A stretch of 64,000 bases of DNA from Luteitalea sp. TBR-22 (GTDB lineage: Bacteria; Acidobacteriota; Vicinamibacteria; Vicinamibacterales; Vicinamibacteraceae). Both the position numbers and the translations under genes were made by a program. The DNA is taken from contig NZ_AP024452.1 in the NCBI RefSeq assembly GCF_016865485.1, forward strand, positions 3,494,501 through 3,558,500, written 5' to 3'. Positions 27,547 to 34,888 of the stretch are shown piece after piece. Position 1 is the stretch's first letter. Each line of letters begins with the position of its first letter. The notes below the pieces were generated by a model. It was not told the origin of the DNA, did no database searches, and saw only the letters and a list, made by a program, of their open reading frames with translations.

Positions 27547-28803
27547 GTGTCCACGCTGATCGGTTTGCAATGCCACGTGTGCCACGCCGCGTTCCCCGCG
27601 GAGGCCACCTACGTCTGCGACCAGTGCTTCGGCCCGCTCGAGCCGGTGTACGACTACGAGAAGGCCCGCGCCACGCTGACGCGCGAGGCCATCGCCGCCC
27701 GCCCCCGCAACATCTGGCGCTACCGCGAGCTGCTGCCGATCACCGGCGAGCCCCTCACCGGCTTCGGCTCGGGGTTCACGCCGCTCGTCCCGGCGCCGCG
27801 CCTGGCCGCGCGCCTCGGTGTCCGTGAGCTCTACGTCAAGGACGATGGCGTCAACCATCCGACGCTCTCGTACAAGGACCGCGTGGTGTCGGTGGCGGCG
27901 ACGCGCGCCGTCGAACTCGGCTTCGACACGTTCGGGTGCGCGTCCACCGGCAACCTCGGCAACAGCGTGGCGGCGCACGCGGCGCGCCTCGGCCTGAAGT
28001 GCTTCGTCTTCATCCCCGACGACCTCGAGCCCTACAAGGTGCTCGGCTCGGCGGTGTACCACCCGACGCTGCTCGCCGTGCGCGGCAACTACGACGACGT
28101 GAACCGGCTCTGCTCGCAGGTGGCCGACAAGCACGGATGGGGCTTTGCCAACATCAACCTGCGGAGTTACTACGCCGAGGGCGCCAAGACGATGGGGTTC
28201 GAGATCGTCGAGCAGCTCGGGTGGCGCTTTCCGCAGCACGTCGTGTCGCCGGTCGCCGGGGGCACGCTGCTGCCGCGCATCTTCCGCGGCTTCCGCGAGC
28301 TGCAGCAACTCGGCCTGGCCGACGGCGAGCTGCCGAAGATGTACGGCGCGCAGGCGGCCGGATCGGCCCCGGTGGTCCGGGCGCTGCATCAGGGCCTGGA
28401 CTACCCCGACCCCGTCAAGCCGTCGACGATTGCCAAGTCGATCGCGATCGGCAACCCCGCCGACGGGTTCCAGGTGCTCGAGGTCTTGCGCGAGTCGGGC
28501 GGCTGGGGTGAGATGGTGACCGACGAGGAGATCCTCGACGGCATCAACCTGCTGGCCGACACGGAAGGCATCTTCACCGAGCCGGCCGGCGGCACGACCG
28601 TCGCCGTGACGCGCAAGCTGATTGCCCAGGGGCGCATCCCCGCCGATGAATCCATCGTGGTCTGCATCACCGGCAACGGCTACAAGACGGCCGACATCAT
28701 GACCGAGCGCGTGGCCAGGGCCGTCCGCATCAGCCGCTCACTCGACGACGTCGATGCCTACCTCGCGGGAACGCTCGCGGGCGTGGGCGAGGAAGGCGCA
28801 TGA
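27547..28803 (+). CDS. thrC: Threonine synthase
   Basis: Protein of 418 residues starting at a GTG. The first 35 residues contain two CxxC pairs (CHVCHAA and CDQCFGP), a zinc-ribbon-like element seen in one branch of threonine synthases. The PLP lysine is K110 in SYKDRVVSVA; the phosphate loop reads CASTGNLGNSVAAHAA. It forms threonine from O-phosphohomoserine in the cytosol. The downstream lysC start overlaps its stop by four bases. The enzyme belongs to the plant-like/type I group by length. Confidence 0.95.
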   Translation: MSTLIGLQCHVCHAAFPAEATYVCDQCFGPLEPVYDYEKARATLTREAIAARPRNIWRYRELLPITGEPLTGFGSGFTPLVPAPRLAARLGVRELYVKDDGVNHPTLSYKDRVVSVAATRAVELGFDTFGCASTGNLGNSVAAHAARLGLKCFVFIPDDLEPYKVLGSAVYHPTLLAVRGNYDDVNRLCSQVADKHGWGFANINLRSYYAEGAKTMGFEIVEQLGWRFPQHVVSPVAGGTLLPRIFRGFRELQQLGLADGELPKMYGAQAAGSAPVVRALHQGLDYPDPVKPSTIAKSIAIGNPADGFQVLEVLRESGGWGEMVTDEEILDGINLLADTEGIFTEPAGGTTVAVTRKLIAQGRIPADESIVVCITGNGYKTADIMTERVARAVRISRSLDDVDAYLAGTLAGVGEEGA

Positions 28804-30140
28804 GTCGCTTCGTACGCTCGAAGCTCCTGGTCCAGAAGTACGGCGGCAGTTCGGTCGCCACGCCCGAGCACATCCGCAACGTCGCCGACCGCATCATCGC
28901 CTGCCAGGCCGAGGCCAGGCACATGGTGGTGGCGGTCTCCGCGATGGGCAAGACCACCGATCAGCTGATCGGCATGGCCAACCAGGTGTCCCGCCACCCG
29001 GCCGGACGCGAGATGGACCAGTTGCTGGCCTGTGGCGAGACGATTGCCGTGTCGCTGCTCAGCCTCGCGCTGCAGGATCGCGGCGTGCCAGCCGTGTCGC
29101 TGACCGCGGCGCAGTGCGGCATCCGCACCGACGGCTCGTTCAACAAGGCGCGCATCGCCAACGTGGAGACTGGCCGCCTGGTGCACGAGCTCGAGAGCGG
29201 CCGCGTGGTGATCGTCGCCGGCTTCCAGGGCGTGACGAGCGACCACGAGGTCACCACGCTCGGGCGTGGCGGCGGCGACATCACCGGCGCCGCCCTGGCG
29301 GCGGCGTTGCAGGCGCCCGTCTGCGAGATCTGCACCGACGTGGACGGGGTGTACACGGCCGACCCGAACGCCGTCGAGGGCGCCAGAATGGTGCCCGAGC
29401 TGAGTTACGAAGAGGCCATCGAGCTGGCGGCCAGCGGCGCCAAGGTGCTGCACCCCCGGGCGGCCGAGATCTGCATGCAGTACGACGTGCCCATCCATGT
29501 GCGGTCGACGTTCCATCGACGCCAGGGCACGTGGATTCGTGGAGGAGTGATGGAGAACGCCGCAGTCGTCGGGATCACGTCGGACAAGAAGATCGCCAAG
29601 GTCACCCTCCTGGAGGTGCGCGACGAACCCGGGCTGGCGGCGGCGATCTTCCGCGACCTCGCGCGGGAGGACGTCAACGTCCGCCTGATCATCCAGGCCG
29701 CGCCGAGCCACGACCGGAACCGCATCACGTTCGTGACCGACAACGACCAGGTCGACCGCATCGAGGAACTCGCGCGGACCTGGCGGAAGAAGAAGATCGT
29801 CGGCGAAGTCCAGGTCGATCTCGACGTGGCCAAGATCGCCATCGTCGGCTCGCGCATCGCGTCGACGCCCGGCCTCGCGGCGCGGATGTTCACGGCCCTC
29901 GCGAAGGTGGGCGTCAACATCGACTGCATCAGCACCTCGGAGATGAAGGTGAGCTGCGTGATCACCCGCAGCGACCTCGACAACGCGGTGCGCGCGGTGC
30001 ACGGGGAGTTCTTCGGCACCGCCCGGCCGGCGGCCCCGCGGGCCACGACGCCGACGCGTCGGCCGTCGACCAGCCGCCCGGCGCGGAAGGTCGCCGCCAA
30101 GCCGGCCACGACGGCGAGCAAGCGCCGCAGCGCGCGCTGA
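28800..30140 (+). CDS. lysC: Aspartate kinase
   Basis: Protein of 446 residues. The kinase domain has VQKYGGSSVATPEHI, then GGGDITGAALAAALQA and CTDVDGVYTADPN. Two ACT-like repeats follow from about residue 260 (VTLLEVRDEPGLAAAIFRDL and KIAIVGSRIASTPGLAARMF), so feedback control by lysine and/or threonine is expected. A 40-residue basic Ala/Thr/Arg-rich tail after residue 405 is an addition to the family. It phosphorylates aspartate, the first step toward threonine, methionine and lysine. It is the last gene of the hom-thrB-thrC-lysC operon, followed by a bidirectional terminator. Confidence 0.95.
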   Translation: MSRFVRSKLLVQKYGGSSVATPEHIRNVADRIIACQAEARHMVVAVSAMGKTTDQLIGMANQVSRHPAGREMDQLLACGETIAVSLLSLALQDRGVPAVSLTAAQCGIRTDGSFNKARIANVETGRLVHELESGRVVIVAGFQGVTSDHEVTTLGRGGGDITGAALAAALQAPVCEICTDVDGVYTADPNAVEGARMVPELSYEEAIELAASGAKVLHPRAAEICMQYDVPIHVRSTFHRRQGTWIRGGVMENAAVVGITSDKKIAKVTLLEVRDEPGLAAAIFRDLAREDVNVRLIIQAAPSHDRNRITFVTDNDQVDRIEELARTWRKKKIVGEVQVDLDVAKIAIVGSRIASTPGLAARMFTALAKVGVNIDCISTSEMKVSCVITRSDLDNAVRAVHGEFFGTARPAAPRATTPTRRPSTSRPARKVAAKPATTASKRRSAR

Positions 30141-30265: not shown

Positions 30266-31567
30266 TCACTTGCTCTTGTCGTCGTCCTTCGGCGTCTTGA
30301 GCGCGTAGCCCTTGCGCGCCCACACGTTGACACCCGGGCGGGTGACCTTCACTTCGATGGCCCGCCGCTTGCGGGTCGGGTCGGGATTGCTCGAGTAGTA
30401 GCCGAGCACGTAGTAGTCGCTCGTCTCGGCGTCGATCTTCTTGAGCGCGCGCTCGAAGTCGTTCTGGTTGACCACGGCGGTGCCGCCGGTCTCCTCGGCG
30501 AGCACGCGCAGGCTGTCCTGCGTCTTGCGAACGTGGTTGCCCCATTCCACCATGTCGACCTCGTCGTCCATCTCGGCGCCGCCGACCAGGCCGCGCGGGT
30601 CGATCGTGTAGATGGTGGCGTTGGCGCGATTGGCCGCGCGCGTGAGGTCGGCCAGCTCGCGCGCGAGGTCGGCATCGGCGAACTGCTGCCCCTGCCGGTT
30701 GGTCACGGCCGCAGGGTCACGCGGGTCCATCCCGGTCTGGTTGTAGCCGTAGAGCGCGTCGCGCTGCAGCCGTCCCTGCGGGAAGGGGTCGAAGTCGAAC
30801 CCGTTGCTCACGAAGATGAGCGCCTTCCGGCGGTTCTGCACCTTCTCGAGTTCCCGCATCAGGTCGAAGGCCGTGCTGAAGGCCACGTGCGCGCGGTAGC
30901 GGAGTTCCTGGTTGCCCTGCTGGCCGTTGGGCTGCTCGAGGATGTCCTTCGGCTTCAGGCCGCTGCCGCTGATCTTCTTGATCGACTCGTCGAGGCGCTT
31001 GCGGTCATAGGTCAGGTCCACCGAGATCGAGGACGGGCCGGTGGACACGATGCCGAACATGTCGCCGTCGTGAATCAACTGCGTCGAGATCTTCTTGAAC
31101 AGGTCGCGGATGCGCGGCGTCTGCCGGAAGTCGAGGTGCAGGTCGTCGACAAACAGCATGAAGATGCGCCCGGCCGCGTCGTTCACGGGACGCGGTGGCG
31201 GCAGCACCATGCCTTCCTCGACGGGCGCCGGCGGTGGCGCAGCGAGGTTGAAGTAGCGGCCGCCGTGCACCAGCGTGAGGGAGGCCACCGTCTGCTGGAC
31301 GCCGTCCTCGACCACCACGAAGTCTTCCTTCTTCAGGTCGGCGAGGAACTGCCCGGCGCCGTCACGCGGGATGACGTCGGTGCTGACGAGGCTGGTGACG
31401 GTGCTGAAGTCGGCGCGCGGCTGTTCCGGCGGCGCCGCCGGTGCCGGCGCCTGCGGGGGGGCCTGGGGCGGTGCGGCCGGCGGGGCTTGCTGCGCGGAAA
31501 GGGTCGCCACGCCGAGCAGGGCCGCCGCCAACAGCGTGCCGAGTCGGCTCAGTCGTACAGGCATCAT
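30266..31567 (-). CDS. Secreted VWFA-related Acidobacterial-domain protein
   Basis: Protein of 433 residues. A signal peptide (residues 1-25, ending ATLSAQ) is followed by a Pro/Ala-rich linker (26-50). The body matches the VWFA-related domain family (TIGR03436 type) common in Acidobacteria: VTSLVSTDVIPRDGAG, FVVVEDGVQQTVA, IFMLFVDDLHLDF in the place of the metal-ion site, ALIFVSNGFDFD, NATIYTIDPRGL, then ETGGTAVVNQNDFERALKKIDAETSDYYVLGYYSS. Export and adhesion-like or protein-interaction roles are assumed for the family, but no function is established. It overlaps the upstream small gene by four bases (ATGA), so both are cotranscribed. It is convergent with lysC. Confidence 0.92.
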   Translation of the reverse strand: MMPVRLSRLGTLLAAALLGVATLSAQQAPPAAPPQAPPQAPAPAAPPEQPRADFSTVTSLVSTDVIPRDGAGQFLADLKKEDFVVVEDGVQQTVASLTLVHGGRYFNLAAPPPAPVEEGMVLPPPRPVNDAAGRIFMLFVDDLHLDFRQTPRIRDLFKKISTQLIHDGDMFGIVSTGPSSISVDLTYDRKRLDESIKKISGSGLKPKDILEQPNGQQGNQELRYRAHVAFSTAFDLMRELEKVQNRRKALIFVSNGFDFDPFPQGRLQRDALYGYNQTGMDPRDPAAVTNRQGQQFADADLARELADLTRAANRANATIYTIDPRGLVGGAEMDDEVDMVEWGNHVRKTQDSLRVLAEETGGTAVVNQNDFERALKKIDAETSDYYVLGYYSSNPDPTRKRRAIEVKVTRPGVNVWARKGYALKTPKDDDKSK

Positions 31568-32010
31568 TCGATTATAGGGGCCGCTGTGGCGCCGGGCGTG
31601 TCGGGCCGGTCGCCTGCGGCACGCTCCTGCGCGCCGCCCTGCCCGCCGCGCCGGCGCTTCCGCTTGCCGGCGGCGGCCTTGTCGGCCGGAGGTTCAGACG
31701 CGGGCGGGCGCCGTTCGGCCTTGCCGGGCGGACGGCCCCGACGTGCCTGCGGCTCGATCGGCGGCGGCAGGCGCCGCTGCTCGATCTCCTTGAGCAGCGC
31801 CGGCCAGTCGAACGACACGTCCGGATAGCGCTGCTCGAGGGCACGCTGGGTCCCTGGATCGAGGGGGCCTCGCCCGAACGACTGCCCCTGCGGCATGGCG
31901 CAGAAGTAGAGGACACGCAAGCGCGTCTCCCCGCGACCATCAGGACGCTGGTGCAACAGGTACAGGGTATCGAGGCCGCGCTTGTCCCGGGCCAGTCGGA
32001 TCAGCGGCAC
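31564..32010 (-). CDS. Hypothetical protein with basic Pro/Ala-rich tail
   Basis: Predicted 148 residues. The first 90 residues look globular (MPLIRLARDKRGLDTLYLLHQ, TRLRVLYFCAMPQGQSFGRG, TQRALEQRYPDVSFDWPALLKEIE); the rest is Arg/Lys/Pro/Ala-rich and probably disordered. I do not recognise a family. Its stop overlaps the VWFA-related gene start, and its start is 13 bases after the H1-like tailed gene, so all three form one minus-strand operon. Two consecutive genes of this operon thus end in long basic low-complexity tails. Confidence 0.75.
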   Translation of the reverse strand: MPLIRLARDKRGLDTLYLLHQRPDGRGETRLRVLYFCAMPQGQSFGRGPLDPGTQRALEQRYPDVSFDWPALLKEIEQRRLPPPIEPQARRGRPPGKAERRPPASEPPADKAAAGKRKRRRGGQGGAQERAAGDRPDTPGATAAPIIE

Positions 32011-32023
32011 GCGTGTCTCGTCC

Positions 32024-33670
32024 TTACTTCCGCTTCGGCTTGGCCGCAGCGCTGCGCGCCGGCGCCTTCACCGCGGGACGACGAGGCGACGGCCGGCCGC
32101 CCTTGACGGTCTTGGCTGCCGGGGAGGCGGGACGTGCGGCCGGTCGCGCCGCCTTGGCCGTGGGACGGGCCGACGGACGCGCCTTGGTTGCCGGGCGGGC
32201 GACCGCGGCGCGGCTCCCCTTCGGCGTGACGACCGCTCGCGACGAACGCGCGGGCGCCGACTTCTTGGCCGACGCCTTGGTCGCGCCCGACGCCTGAGGA
32301 CGGGCCGCCGCCTTGGCCTTGCCGGGCTTGGCCGTCACGGCGCGCGCGGGCTTGACCGGCTTGGCCGGCTTGGCCGCGGGGCGAGCGGCCGCCGCTTTGC
32401 GTGCGGCCGGGGCCACCGCCCTGCCGGCCGATGGCTTGGCCACCTTGGCGGGCTTGGCCGACTTGGGCGTGGCCGACCTGGCCGGGATCGACTTGGCCGG
32501 GGCCGGCTTGGCCGGGGCCGGCTTGGCGGCAACCGGCTTGCCGACCGCGCCCCTGGTTGGCGCGGGCTTGCCAGCGGCGGCCTTGCCGGTGCCGCTCGGC
32601 CTGGCGACGGCGGCCTTCTCGGGGACCTGGCGGGCCACAGCCGGCTTGCCAGCGGCGGGCTTGGGGGTCGCGGGCTTGGCTGGCGCCGCCTTGGCGGGCT
32701 CCGGCTTGACCGCGGGCACCTTCGGCGTCGCCTTCGATACGGGTACGGGCGCGGGCGACGCCACCGGATCGACGACTGGCGCAGGAACGGGTACGGGGGC
32801 CGGCGCGGACCTGGCCGCCGCCTCTGCCGCGGCCGCCATCCGTGCGGGCGCACGCTTCTCGGCCGCTTCCTTGATGGCCGCCTTCGCCCGTGCGGCAGCC
32901 TCCGACAGGACGACCGGCGGCGCGGGCGCCTTCTTGCCTGACGCATCGACGGCCGGTGCCGGTGCCCCTGCAGGTGCGGGCGCCGGCGTCGCCGCCTTGG
33001 CCGGCTTGGCCATCTTGGCCTTGGACGGCTTGGCCTTCAGCGGCGGGAGACGCAGGGGTTCCGCGGCGGCAGCCGCAGCCGCCTCGGCGATGGCGCGGCG
33101 GCTGTCGATGGGCGTTTCGTCGCGGCGCGGGTTCTGGATGGCCGACTCGACGGCAGCCTCGATGTCGCTGGCCCGGCGGGTCTTGATCGAGACGATGTCG
33201 ACCAGCGGCGTGTCGGTCGGCACACCGGGCTCGGCAGGCAGTGCCGGGTCGCGGAACACGCGCTCGAGTCGGATCTGGTCGCCTCCCAGGGATCCGTACG
33301 ACCAGATTTCGGCGGGAGCGATCGAGTGCTGGGCGCAGAGGCGGCGGGTGGCGTCGATGCAGGCAACCGGCACGTAGAGCCGGAACTGCGCGCGGGCCTT
33401 GGCAAACAGGACCCACTGGTACATGGCCTCGAGGTTGTTGACCGACTCGCCGGTCTCGACCTCGATCACCGCATGCGGCTTGCCGGCGGCGTCCCGGGGC
33501 GTGAGGATGAGGTCCGGGTAGGCCTGGCCCGTGCCCGTCTTGATGGACACGCGACGTTCGTCCCCGACGTTCACCTCGACGACGAATTTCTCGCCGAACG
33601 AGAGTTCCAACGCCCGGATGACTCGGTCGTGCTCGAACTGTTCGCGTACCGGACGGATCAGAATCGCCAC
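32024..33670 (-). CDS. Possible PD-(D/E)XK-type domain fused to a histone-H1-like Lys/Ala/Pro tail
   Basis: Protein of 548 residues. The GTG at 33670 was chosen because GGAGG stands about five bases before it; an ATG 20 codons upstream lacks this. Residues 1-190 look globular: REQFEHDRVIRALELSFGEKF, then P52-D53 in AYPDLIL and E70-V-E72 in AVIEVETGES, an arrangement like the PD-(D/E)XK nuclease core with E in place of the last Lys. Residues about 200-548 are almost only Ala, Lys, Pro, Arg, Ser, Thr and Val with many KPA/KPAKA units, as in H1-like DNA-binding tails. Role unknown; DNA binding by the tail is an inference. First gene of the operon with 31564 and 30266. Confidence 0.8.
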   Translation of the reverse strand: MAILIRPVREQFEHDRVIRALELSFGEKFVVEVNVGDERRVSIKTGTGQAYPDLILTPRDAAGKPHAVIEVETGESVNNLEAMYQWVLFAKARAQFRLYVPVACIDATRRLCAQHSIAPAEIWSYGSLGGDQIRLERVFRDPALPAEPGVPTDTPLVDIVSIKTRRASDIEAAVESAIQNPRRDETPIDSRRAIAEAAAAAAAEPLRLPPLKAKPSKAKMAKPAKAATPAPAPAGAPAPAVDASGKKAPAPPVVLSEAAARAKAAIKEAAEKRAPARMAAAAEAAARSAPAPVPVPAPVVDPVASPAPVPVSKATPKVPAVKPEPAKAAPAKPATPKPAAGKPAVARQVPEKAAVARPSGTGKAAAGKPAPTRGAVGKPVAAKPAPAKPAPAKSIPARSATPKSAKPAKVAKPSAGRAVAPAARKAAAARPAAKPAKPVKPARAVTAKPGKAKAAARPQASGATKASAKKSAPARSSRAVVTPKGSRAAVARPATKARPSARPTAKAARPAARPASPAAKTVKGGRPSPRRPAVKAPARSAAAKPKRK

Positions 33671-33859
33671 ACAGCCTCCGCGGCCCCACAATGGGTGCCG
33701 GCGTGCCCCGCGCCTGCCACGCGGCGGCAAACGGGGAATGCTAGCATGGATATGTAACCAATCGCCAGCGAGTTGCGCTCGGCGGTCCCTATTCTGCCAC
33801 AGGCCATCCGGAATCCCTAACGCCCTGTTTTCAGGCTACTTAGCCCCATTGTCTCGACC

Positions 33860-34888
33860 GTGAACGACCGATTCCTCCGCGCCTGCCGGCGCCAGCCCGT
33901 CGACGCCACCCCCGTCTGGTTCATGCGCCAGGCCGGACGATACATGCCGGAATATCGGGCACTTCGCCAGCAGTACAGCCTCCTGGAGCTCTGCCGCACC
34001 CCCGATCTCGCCGCCCAGGTCACCCTCCAGCCGGTCGAGGCCATCGAGGTCGATGCCGCCATCCTGTTCTCGGACCTGCTCTTGCCGCTCGAGCCGATGG
34101 GGCTGACCTTCGATTTCGTGAAGGGCGAGGGCCCCGCCTTCGACGACCCCATCCGATCGGCGGCCGACGTCGAGCGGCTGCGCCCCATCGACCCCGAAAC
34201 GTCACTCGGGCACGTCCTGCAGACCATCCGGCAGCTCAAACCCCAGCTCGACGTGCCGCTCATCGGCTTTGTCGGCGCCCCCTTCACCCTGGCGTCCTAC
34301 GCCATCGAGGGCGGCCCCTCGAAGGACTTCGCCCGCACCAAGGCGATGATGTACGCCGAGCCCGAGGCGTGGCACACGCTCTGCGGACGCCTCGCCGACA
34401 TGGCCGGGACCTACCTCCGCGCCCAGATTGCGGCCGGTGTCGATGCCGTCCAGGTCTTCGATTCGTGGGTCGGCCAACTCGGCCCTGCCGATTACCGCGA
34501 GTTCGCCCTGCCCCACACCCGGCGGGTCTTCGACGCCATCGCCGACCTCGACGTACCGTCGATTCATTTCGGCGTCGGCACGGCGATGCTGCTCGAGGAC
34601 ATGGCCACCGCCGGCAGCGACGTCGTCGGCGCCGACTGGCGCACGCCGCTCGACCGCGCCTGGCAGCTCATCGGCACCGACAAGGGGATCCAGGGCAACC
34701 TCGACCCCACCCTGCTGCTCGGCCCGTGGTCGCGGGTCCGCGCCGCGGTCGAGGACATCGTGAGCCGCGCCGGCGGACGGCCGGGCCACATCTTCAACCT
34801 CGGCCATGGCGTCCTGCCCATGACGTCGCCCGAGGTCATCCAGCGGGTCGCCCGGCTGGTGCACTCGCTCACCTCGACCGCGCGATGA
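33860..34888 (+). CDS. hemE: Uroporphyrinogen decarboxylase
   Basis: Protein of 342 residues from a GTG. The signature VWFMRQAGRYMPEYRALRQ occurs near residue 20; ILFSDLLLPLEPMGL and GFVGAPFTLASYAIEGG are further family motifs. The enzyme removes four carboxyl groups from uroporphyrinogen III to give coproporphyrinogen III in the cytosol. The stop overlaps the ATG of the protoporphyrinogen oxidase gene by four bases. No hemH or hemN lies between them, which differs from the common hemE-hemH-hemY order. Confidence 0.96.
   Translation: MNDRFLRACRRQPVDATPVWFMRQAGRYMPEYRALRQQYSLLELCRTPDLAAQVTLQPVEAIEVDAAILFSDLLLPLEPMGLTFDFVKGEGPAFDDPIRSAADVERLRPIDPETSLGHVLQTIRQLKPQLDVPLIGFVGAPFTLASYAIEGGPSKDFARTKAMMYAEPEAWHTLCGRLADMAGTYLRAQIAAGVDAVQVFDSWVGQLGPADYREFALPHTRRVFDAIADLDVPSIHFGVGTAMLLEDMATAGSDVVGADWRTPLDRAWQLIGTDKGIQGNLDPTLLLGPWSRVRAAVEDIVSRAGGRPGHIFNLGHGVLPMTSPEVIQRVARLVHSLTSTAR

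Follow-up and report, generated by a model that had tools for sequence, protein, structure and literature searches.

The gene described here occupies positions 32024–33670 on the minus strand of the window (the whole 64,000 nt stretch of the Luteitalea sp. TBR-22 genome that was analysed), and consists of an open frame of 548 codons followed by a stop codon (32024–32026). Translation begins at a GTG codon at 33670, preceded by a putative ribosome-binding site (GGAGG with a 4 nt spacer; 33671–33679, minus strand). An alternative, longer TTG start is also present; the conserved part of related proteins begins at the position equivalent to the GTG, and in most relatives a GTG lies no more than a few codons away. 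The 548 aa product can be divided into three parts, all encoded on the minus strand: a conserved N-terminal domain (residues 1–143; 33242–33670), supported by invariant columns and profile comparison and containing E10, E13, P52-D53, E70-V-E72, E81 and E121; a linker (residues 144–205; 33056–33241), assigned from pairwise identities; and an Ala/Lys/Pro/Arg tail (residues 206–548; 32027–33055) that ends in KPKRK, recognised from the distribution of Lys codons among the frames and from the basic tails of other family members. A preliminary description of this DNA gave the same frame, a PD at residues 52–53, an E-x-E at 70–72 and an Ala/Lys/Pro-rich tail of about 350 residues; with numbering from the GTG both motifs fall at those positions, the second as E-V-E, and the tail measures 343 aa. 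Opposite the tail, on the plus strand, lies an Ala/Gly/Leu-rich open frame of 354 aa (32313–33377), probably a by-product of the codon composition of the tail.

Synteny was compared in 21 loci, comprising the window and 20 others chosen on long contigs. Directly 3′ of the gene, starting 13 nt past its stop codon, is ORF148 (31564–32010, minus strand; 148 aa), and this co-oriented arrangement is seen in 17 of the 21 loci, with gaps of −4 to +57 nt. The two genes are probably co-transcribed. Further downstream, in the same direction, is a gene for a VWA-domain protein (TIGR03436, acidobact_VWFA; 30266–31567, minus strand; NCBIfam E 1.4e-51), and a matching gene is downstream and co-oriented in all 21 loci. 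On the other side, hemE (uroporphyrinogen decarboxylase; 33860–34888, plus strand; Pfam URO-D E 6.3e-133) is divergent, as it is in 13 of the 21 loci, and an arginase-family gene is found divergently upstream in 17 of the 21.

The ORF148 protein has a conserved N-terminal domain of about 75 aa and a tail of variable length. Ten residues are invariant across the 17 sequences (D9, R11, G12, Y35, G46, R47, P63, F67, D68 and W69), forming the motifs D-x-RG, GR and FDW, and no family match was found in Pfam, NCBIfam, PADLOC or PHROGs. ORF148 was detected in 16 of 199 genomes of the phylum, all from the same order as the source genome, while two genomes (G009 and G011) carry the gene with no ORF148 match. 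The idea that an acidic ORF148 tail complements the basic tail of its neighbour does not hold in general, as the net charges range from −21 to +10.

The source genome (a single contig of 6.47 Mb) carries one copy of the gene. In a set of 100 genomes that includes it, the N-terminal domain was found in 78, and in 64 of the 78 genomes of high quality, with one match per genome except in one case where two pieces were located on two contigs. At the level of the class, 97 of 149 genomes gave a match, every one of them in the source order or nearer, and in a sample of the phylum the 22 matching genomes of 247 all belonged to that order (Vicinamibacterales). The domain is missing from all four searched genomes of one genus (g45 in group f8; G065, G072, G078 and G089), which suggests a lineage-specific loss. 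Searches of plasmids and phages returned no member of the family, nor did a scan of IMG/VR with two peptide patterns, and a contig scan using patterns of close relatives only returned four acidobacterial loci. Synteny across the 21 loci argues for vertical inheritance within one order, as does the lack of any member in the plasmid, phage and IMG/VR searches. A defence system or mobile element was considered and is not supported, given that PADLOC gave no match, that phages, plasmids and IMG/VR yielded no member, and that the neighbours are conserved in the 21 loci. Vertical inheritance in a non-mobile context speaks for a housekeeping role, yet 14 of the 78 high-quality genomes do without the gene. 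No publication on the family was found among the matches listed for a few word combinations in open-access literature.

Conservation of the N-terminal domain was assessed in 91 members from the fetched loci, all distinct within their first 120 residues. In the first ~150 residues, members share a median of 52% identity in pairwise comparison, with a minimum of 34%. Sixteen of 141 columns are invariant and six of these are acidic (E10, D53, E70, E72, E81 and E121), an enrichment over the 17 of 141 columns in which the commonest residue is acidic (P = 0.005, with shared ancestry ignored). D53, E70 and E72 are thus present in every member, the latter two within the context I-E-V-E-T in the window protein, and P52 is found in 90 of 91. 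Near the N-terminus, E10 is retained throughout and E13 in 90 of 91. E81 and W86 occur in all members, Q or E at position 85 in 89, and K or R at positions 91 and 93 in 84 and 85, respectively. No column of the domain shows an invariant Lys.

The full protein matched no family in Pfam (none at E ≤ 1), NCBIfam, PADLOC or PHROGs. When 31 members were scanned against Pfam, five families were hit by one member each (best E 0.064), none of them a PD-(D/E)XK family at E ≤ 1. Neither phmmer nor a profile search revealed similarity to any PDB sequence, the latter giving one unrelated chance match (E 1.4). Kinship to TAL effectors was examined and rejected: among the 30 matches listed by phmmer for a 197-residue query (the Cys before the start plus residues 1–196), 26 bore TAL-effector names and three others, at the same place, the name 'TOD', with E down to 1.8e-7, but the score is summed over many repeats aligned to query residues 112 to ~158 and no single stretch passes alone.

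In profile-profile comparison by hhalign, the 31-member profile aligned to Uma2 (PF05685) with E 0.0034 and to HSDR_N_2 (PF13588) with E 0.018, and the 91-member profile with E 0.0012 and 0.02, at scores of 22.7–25.9 and 18.7–22.2 and probabilities of 2–20%. Both are presumably families of the PD-(D/E)XK superfamily, and in the printed alignments the conserved D and E are in register with theirs. As yardsticks, Uma2 scores 19.9 against HSDR_N_2, and Mrr 46 against HSDR_N_2. With the 91-member profile, 22 control families scored 17.9 or less, compared with 25.9 for Uma2 and 18.7–20.6 for HSDR_N_2; the controls were ORF families from the neighbouring loci, including some spurious frames, and a 23rd was excluded as it proved to be the present family. 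Of 60 column shuffles of the 31-member profile in each test, one scored as high as the real alignment to Uma2; for HSDR_N_2, none did so with the 30-row set and one with the 19-row set. Mrr_cat and NucS_C were also tried, the second half of the domain being NucS-like by eye, and were set aside with scores within or below those of shuffles (the NucS profile was built on 13 mostly weak matches). MmcB (PF06319) matched in 1 of 297 phylum genomes, too few for a profile. The source genome itself has a single Uma2 match, elsewhere, at 5.42 Mb.

Two AlphaFold2 models were built from five sequences each and are of low confidence, with a mean pLDDT of 53 for the window protein and 47 when the protein of a related locus (L033) was the query. 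In both, a helix and two strands are followed by a second group consisting of helix, strand, helix and two more strands. As modelled, this order fits a PD-(D/E)XK core except for the strand between the two groups that should carry E-x-E, which is unformed in both; the first model has just bridge residues at 65 and 72. E10 and E13 lie just before a helix at 14–25 in one of these poor models, and E13 is inside a helix at 11–24 in the other, while D53 of motif II is at a predicted strand (53–59 or 54–58). The acidic residues near the predicted first helix, the PD and the E-x-(E) follow one another in the order expected for the PD-(D/E)XK superfamily, of which Uma2 and HSDR_N_2 are the nearest families among those compared. 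The present family differs from these two in having no Pfam match, Glu in place of the motif III Lys in 91 of 91 members, a basic tail, and a distribution confined to one order among the genomes searched.

Structural searches gave weak matches, and with models of this quality they are not counted as evidence. The best Foldseek match of the first model had E 0.11, and although BsaXI and several tRNA-splicing endonucleases were near the top (TM about 0.2), matches at E 0.11 or worse are not taken as evidence. VIA-align reached best Z values of 3.1 and 5.0 for the two models, with most rows being unrelated folds. XisH, YaeQ, SfsA, PaqCI and a CdiA-CT domain, which we take to be restriction-like, appeared among the weak rows, tied with unrelated ones. 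XisH and SfsA came up at this low level with both models.

Taken with these results, the N-terminal domain is probably PD-(D/E)XK-like, the odds having been lowered slightly because the E-x-E strand is unformed in the models. The PD-(D/E)XK core proposed in the preliminary description is plausible: it gains from the register with Uma2 and HSDR_N_2, and loses from the lack of any match in the family libraries and of any signal from Mrr_cat or NucS_C. The structure prediction proposed there as a check was likewise divided, the element order fitting, and the E-x-E strand remaining unformed at pLDDT 53 and 47. Alternatively, the region may have another small alpha/beta fold, with PD and E-V-E present by coincidence or for structural reasons, and with a tail that still binds nucleic acid or polyphosphate. 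The weak profile statistics, with shuffles able to match the real score, the silence of Mrr and NucS, the missing E-x-E strand, and the predominance of GTPase, Argonaute, CARF and other Rossmann-like folds in the VIA-align rows of the second model all speak for such a domain. It would leave unexplained why the D and E line up with those of two PD-(D/E)XK families at scores above those of 22 controls, and why XisH and SfsA, presumably PD-(D/E)XK proteins, recur with both models, and we regard it as fairly unlikely.

Motif III, (D/E)-x-K, is present only in its first part: E70 is there, but at position 72 all 91 members have Glu and none has Lys, bearing out the earlier remark that the last Lys is replaced. 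In the superfamily, this Lys has moved to the second helix in some families, often as Arg, and motif III is altered in others, e.g., (D/E)X(D/N/S/C/G) in DUF506 (PMC1913061, in excerpt). Motif IV calls for a polar or charged residue in the second core helix, which is sometimes such a migrated Lys or Arg; the positions considered for it are E81, Q/E at 85, W86 and K/R at 91 and 93. The last two may be candidates for the migrated residue, although they come late in the second helix and need not replace the Lys. Because position 72 is never Lys, and with the published variants of motif III in mind, the domain is classed here as PD-(D/E)XK-like and not as a member of the superfamily. A parallel may be seen in the restriction endonucleases of the BamHI type, with which the family shares both E-x-E and its spacing. 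BamHI, with D-(x16)-E-x-E, is active.

A catalytically dead domain would turn the protein into an architectural nucleoid protein or tether, its N-terminal domain attached to cargo or to a partner, perhaps the protein made from ORF148, while its tail binds DNA. This would account for the motif III Lys being found in 0 of 91 members and for the domain having no invariant Lys at all, and also for the fact that, besides the domain, the constant feature of the family is a tail that varies tenfold in length and is always positively charged. The strictly kept acidic set speaks against decay, since D53, E70 and E72 would not be expected to persist in 91 of 91 members at a dead site, and the activity of BamHI with E-x-E points the same way. 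Such a dead domain is considered unlikely, even with the precedent of AlgP and PhaF, in which a domain joined to a KPAA tail is thought to tether the granule to the nucleoid (PMC9239181, in excerpt).

The tail, from about residue 206 to 548, is of low complexity and basic. Its reading frame holds 48 Lys codons (AAG/AAA), compared with 0–2 in each of the five other frames, and runs for 343 codons with no stop. Of the 91 members, 84 run through to a stop codon, and every one of these has a Lys/Ala/Pro-rich, basic, H1-like C-terminus, with lengths of 38–407 aa (counted from residue 146) and net charges of +13 to +67; the seven that run off the fetched stretch were excluded. Compared with three close relatives, the window protein is 83–86% identical in the domain, 81–83% in the linker and 42–47% in the tail. 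What appears to be kept in the tail is composition and not sequence, as might be expected of a disordered segment. An untranslated tail, the case the preliminary description named as telling against it, or a neutral stretch of low complexity produced by high GC content, might explain the low identity of the tail relative to the domain, but is hardly credible in view of the 48 in-frame Lys codons, the 343 codons free of stops and the basic tail of 84 out of 84 members.

Comparable tails are known from proteins with other N-terminal parts, which in PhaF is a granule-binding phasin, in AlgP a predicted helical domain and in HupB an HU domain. Like the present protein, AlgP and PhaF have a Lys/Ala/Pro-rich C-terminal tail, and for AlgP, binding of DNA by KPAA peptides has been reported, as has a need for the C-terminus in the spacing of granules (PMC9239181, in excerpt). 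HupB also ends in a Lys/Ala/Pro-rich tail, described as indispensable for its association with the nucleoid (PMC5676037, in excerpt). The chlamydial protein Hc2 has Lys-rich repeats of variable size that are comparable to the tail described here (PMC2848022, in excerpt). By analogy with AlgP and HupB, the tail may tether the protein to the nucleoid.

The gene belongs to a real and conserved family that has no profile match and combines two known kinds of part. The explanation we favour, with a probability of roughly 0.45, is that it encodes a nucleic-acid protein that is anchored to the nucleoid, binds metal, is inherited vertically and has an unusual E-x-E site. The basic, H1-like tail would hold the protein on the nucleoid with no sequence preference, while the N-terminal domain, having a PD-(D/E)XK-like fold, would bind metal through E10/E13, D53, E70 and E72 and would act on, or recognise, nucleic acid via its non-canonical E-x-E site. 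The reading frame, the conservation, the constancy of the tail, the synteny and the confinement to one order among the genomes searched are direct observations, from which the fold, metal binding, DNA tethering, co-transcription and function are to be distinguished as inferred. The suggestion made earlier of a DNA-attached enzyme or nucleoid protein fits these findings and is partly supported, having been strengthened by the conserved acidic set and the basic tail. As the gene is vertically inherited and probably co-transcribed with ORF148, a role in chromosome maintenance or nucleic-acid processing fits better than one in defence or in a mobile element. A more specific proposal, that the gene forms an order-specific chromosome-maintenance module, in which a metal-dependent E-x-E nuclease is permanently moored to the nucleoid by its H1-like tail and works with the ORF148 protein, is unlikely.

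What makes the family of interest is that it is order-wide and matches no profile, that its putative acidic site is strictly kept, and that each complete member examined carries an H1-like tail. Should both the fold and the tethering be correct, a fold for nucleic-acid chemistry would be joined to an H1-like chromatin tail, a combination matched by none of the known proteins compared; likewise, no nuclease made 'chromatin-bound' by such a built-in part turned up in the families compared. The gene would then offer a direct entry into chromosome handling by these Acidobacteria, with the conserved neighbour ORF148 as a second handle.

Tails of this composition are uncommon in the sampled part of the source genome. 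A scan of the six-frame ORFs of 464 kb (the window plus 400 kb of the same genome, as twenty 20 kb stretches) found five with such a C-terminus: the gene described here, with by far the longest, an aspartokinase (~38 residues) and three candidate ORFs (38–43 residues). The aspartokinase, with AA_kinase and ACT domains, is encoded within the window (28800–30140, plus strand) and carries a short basic C-terminal tail of Ala, Lys, Arg and Thr. A basic extension also ends the aspartokinase gene in the loci of four relatives (L068–L071).
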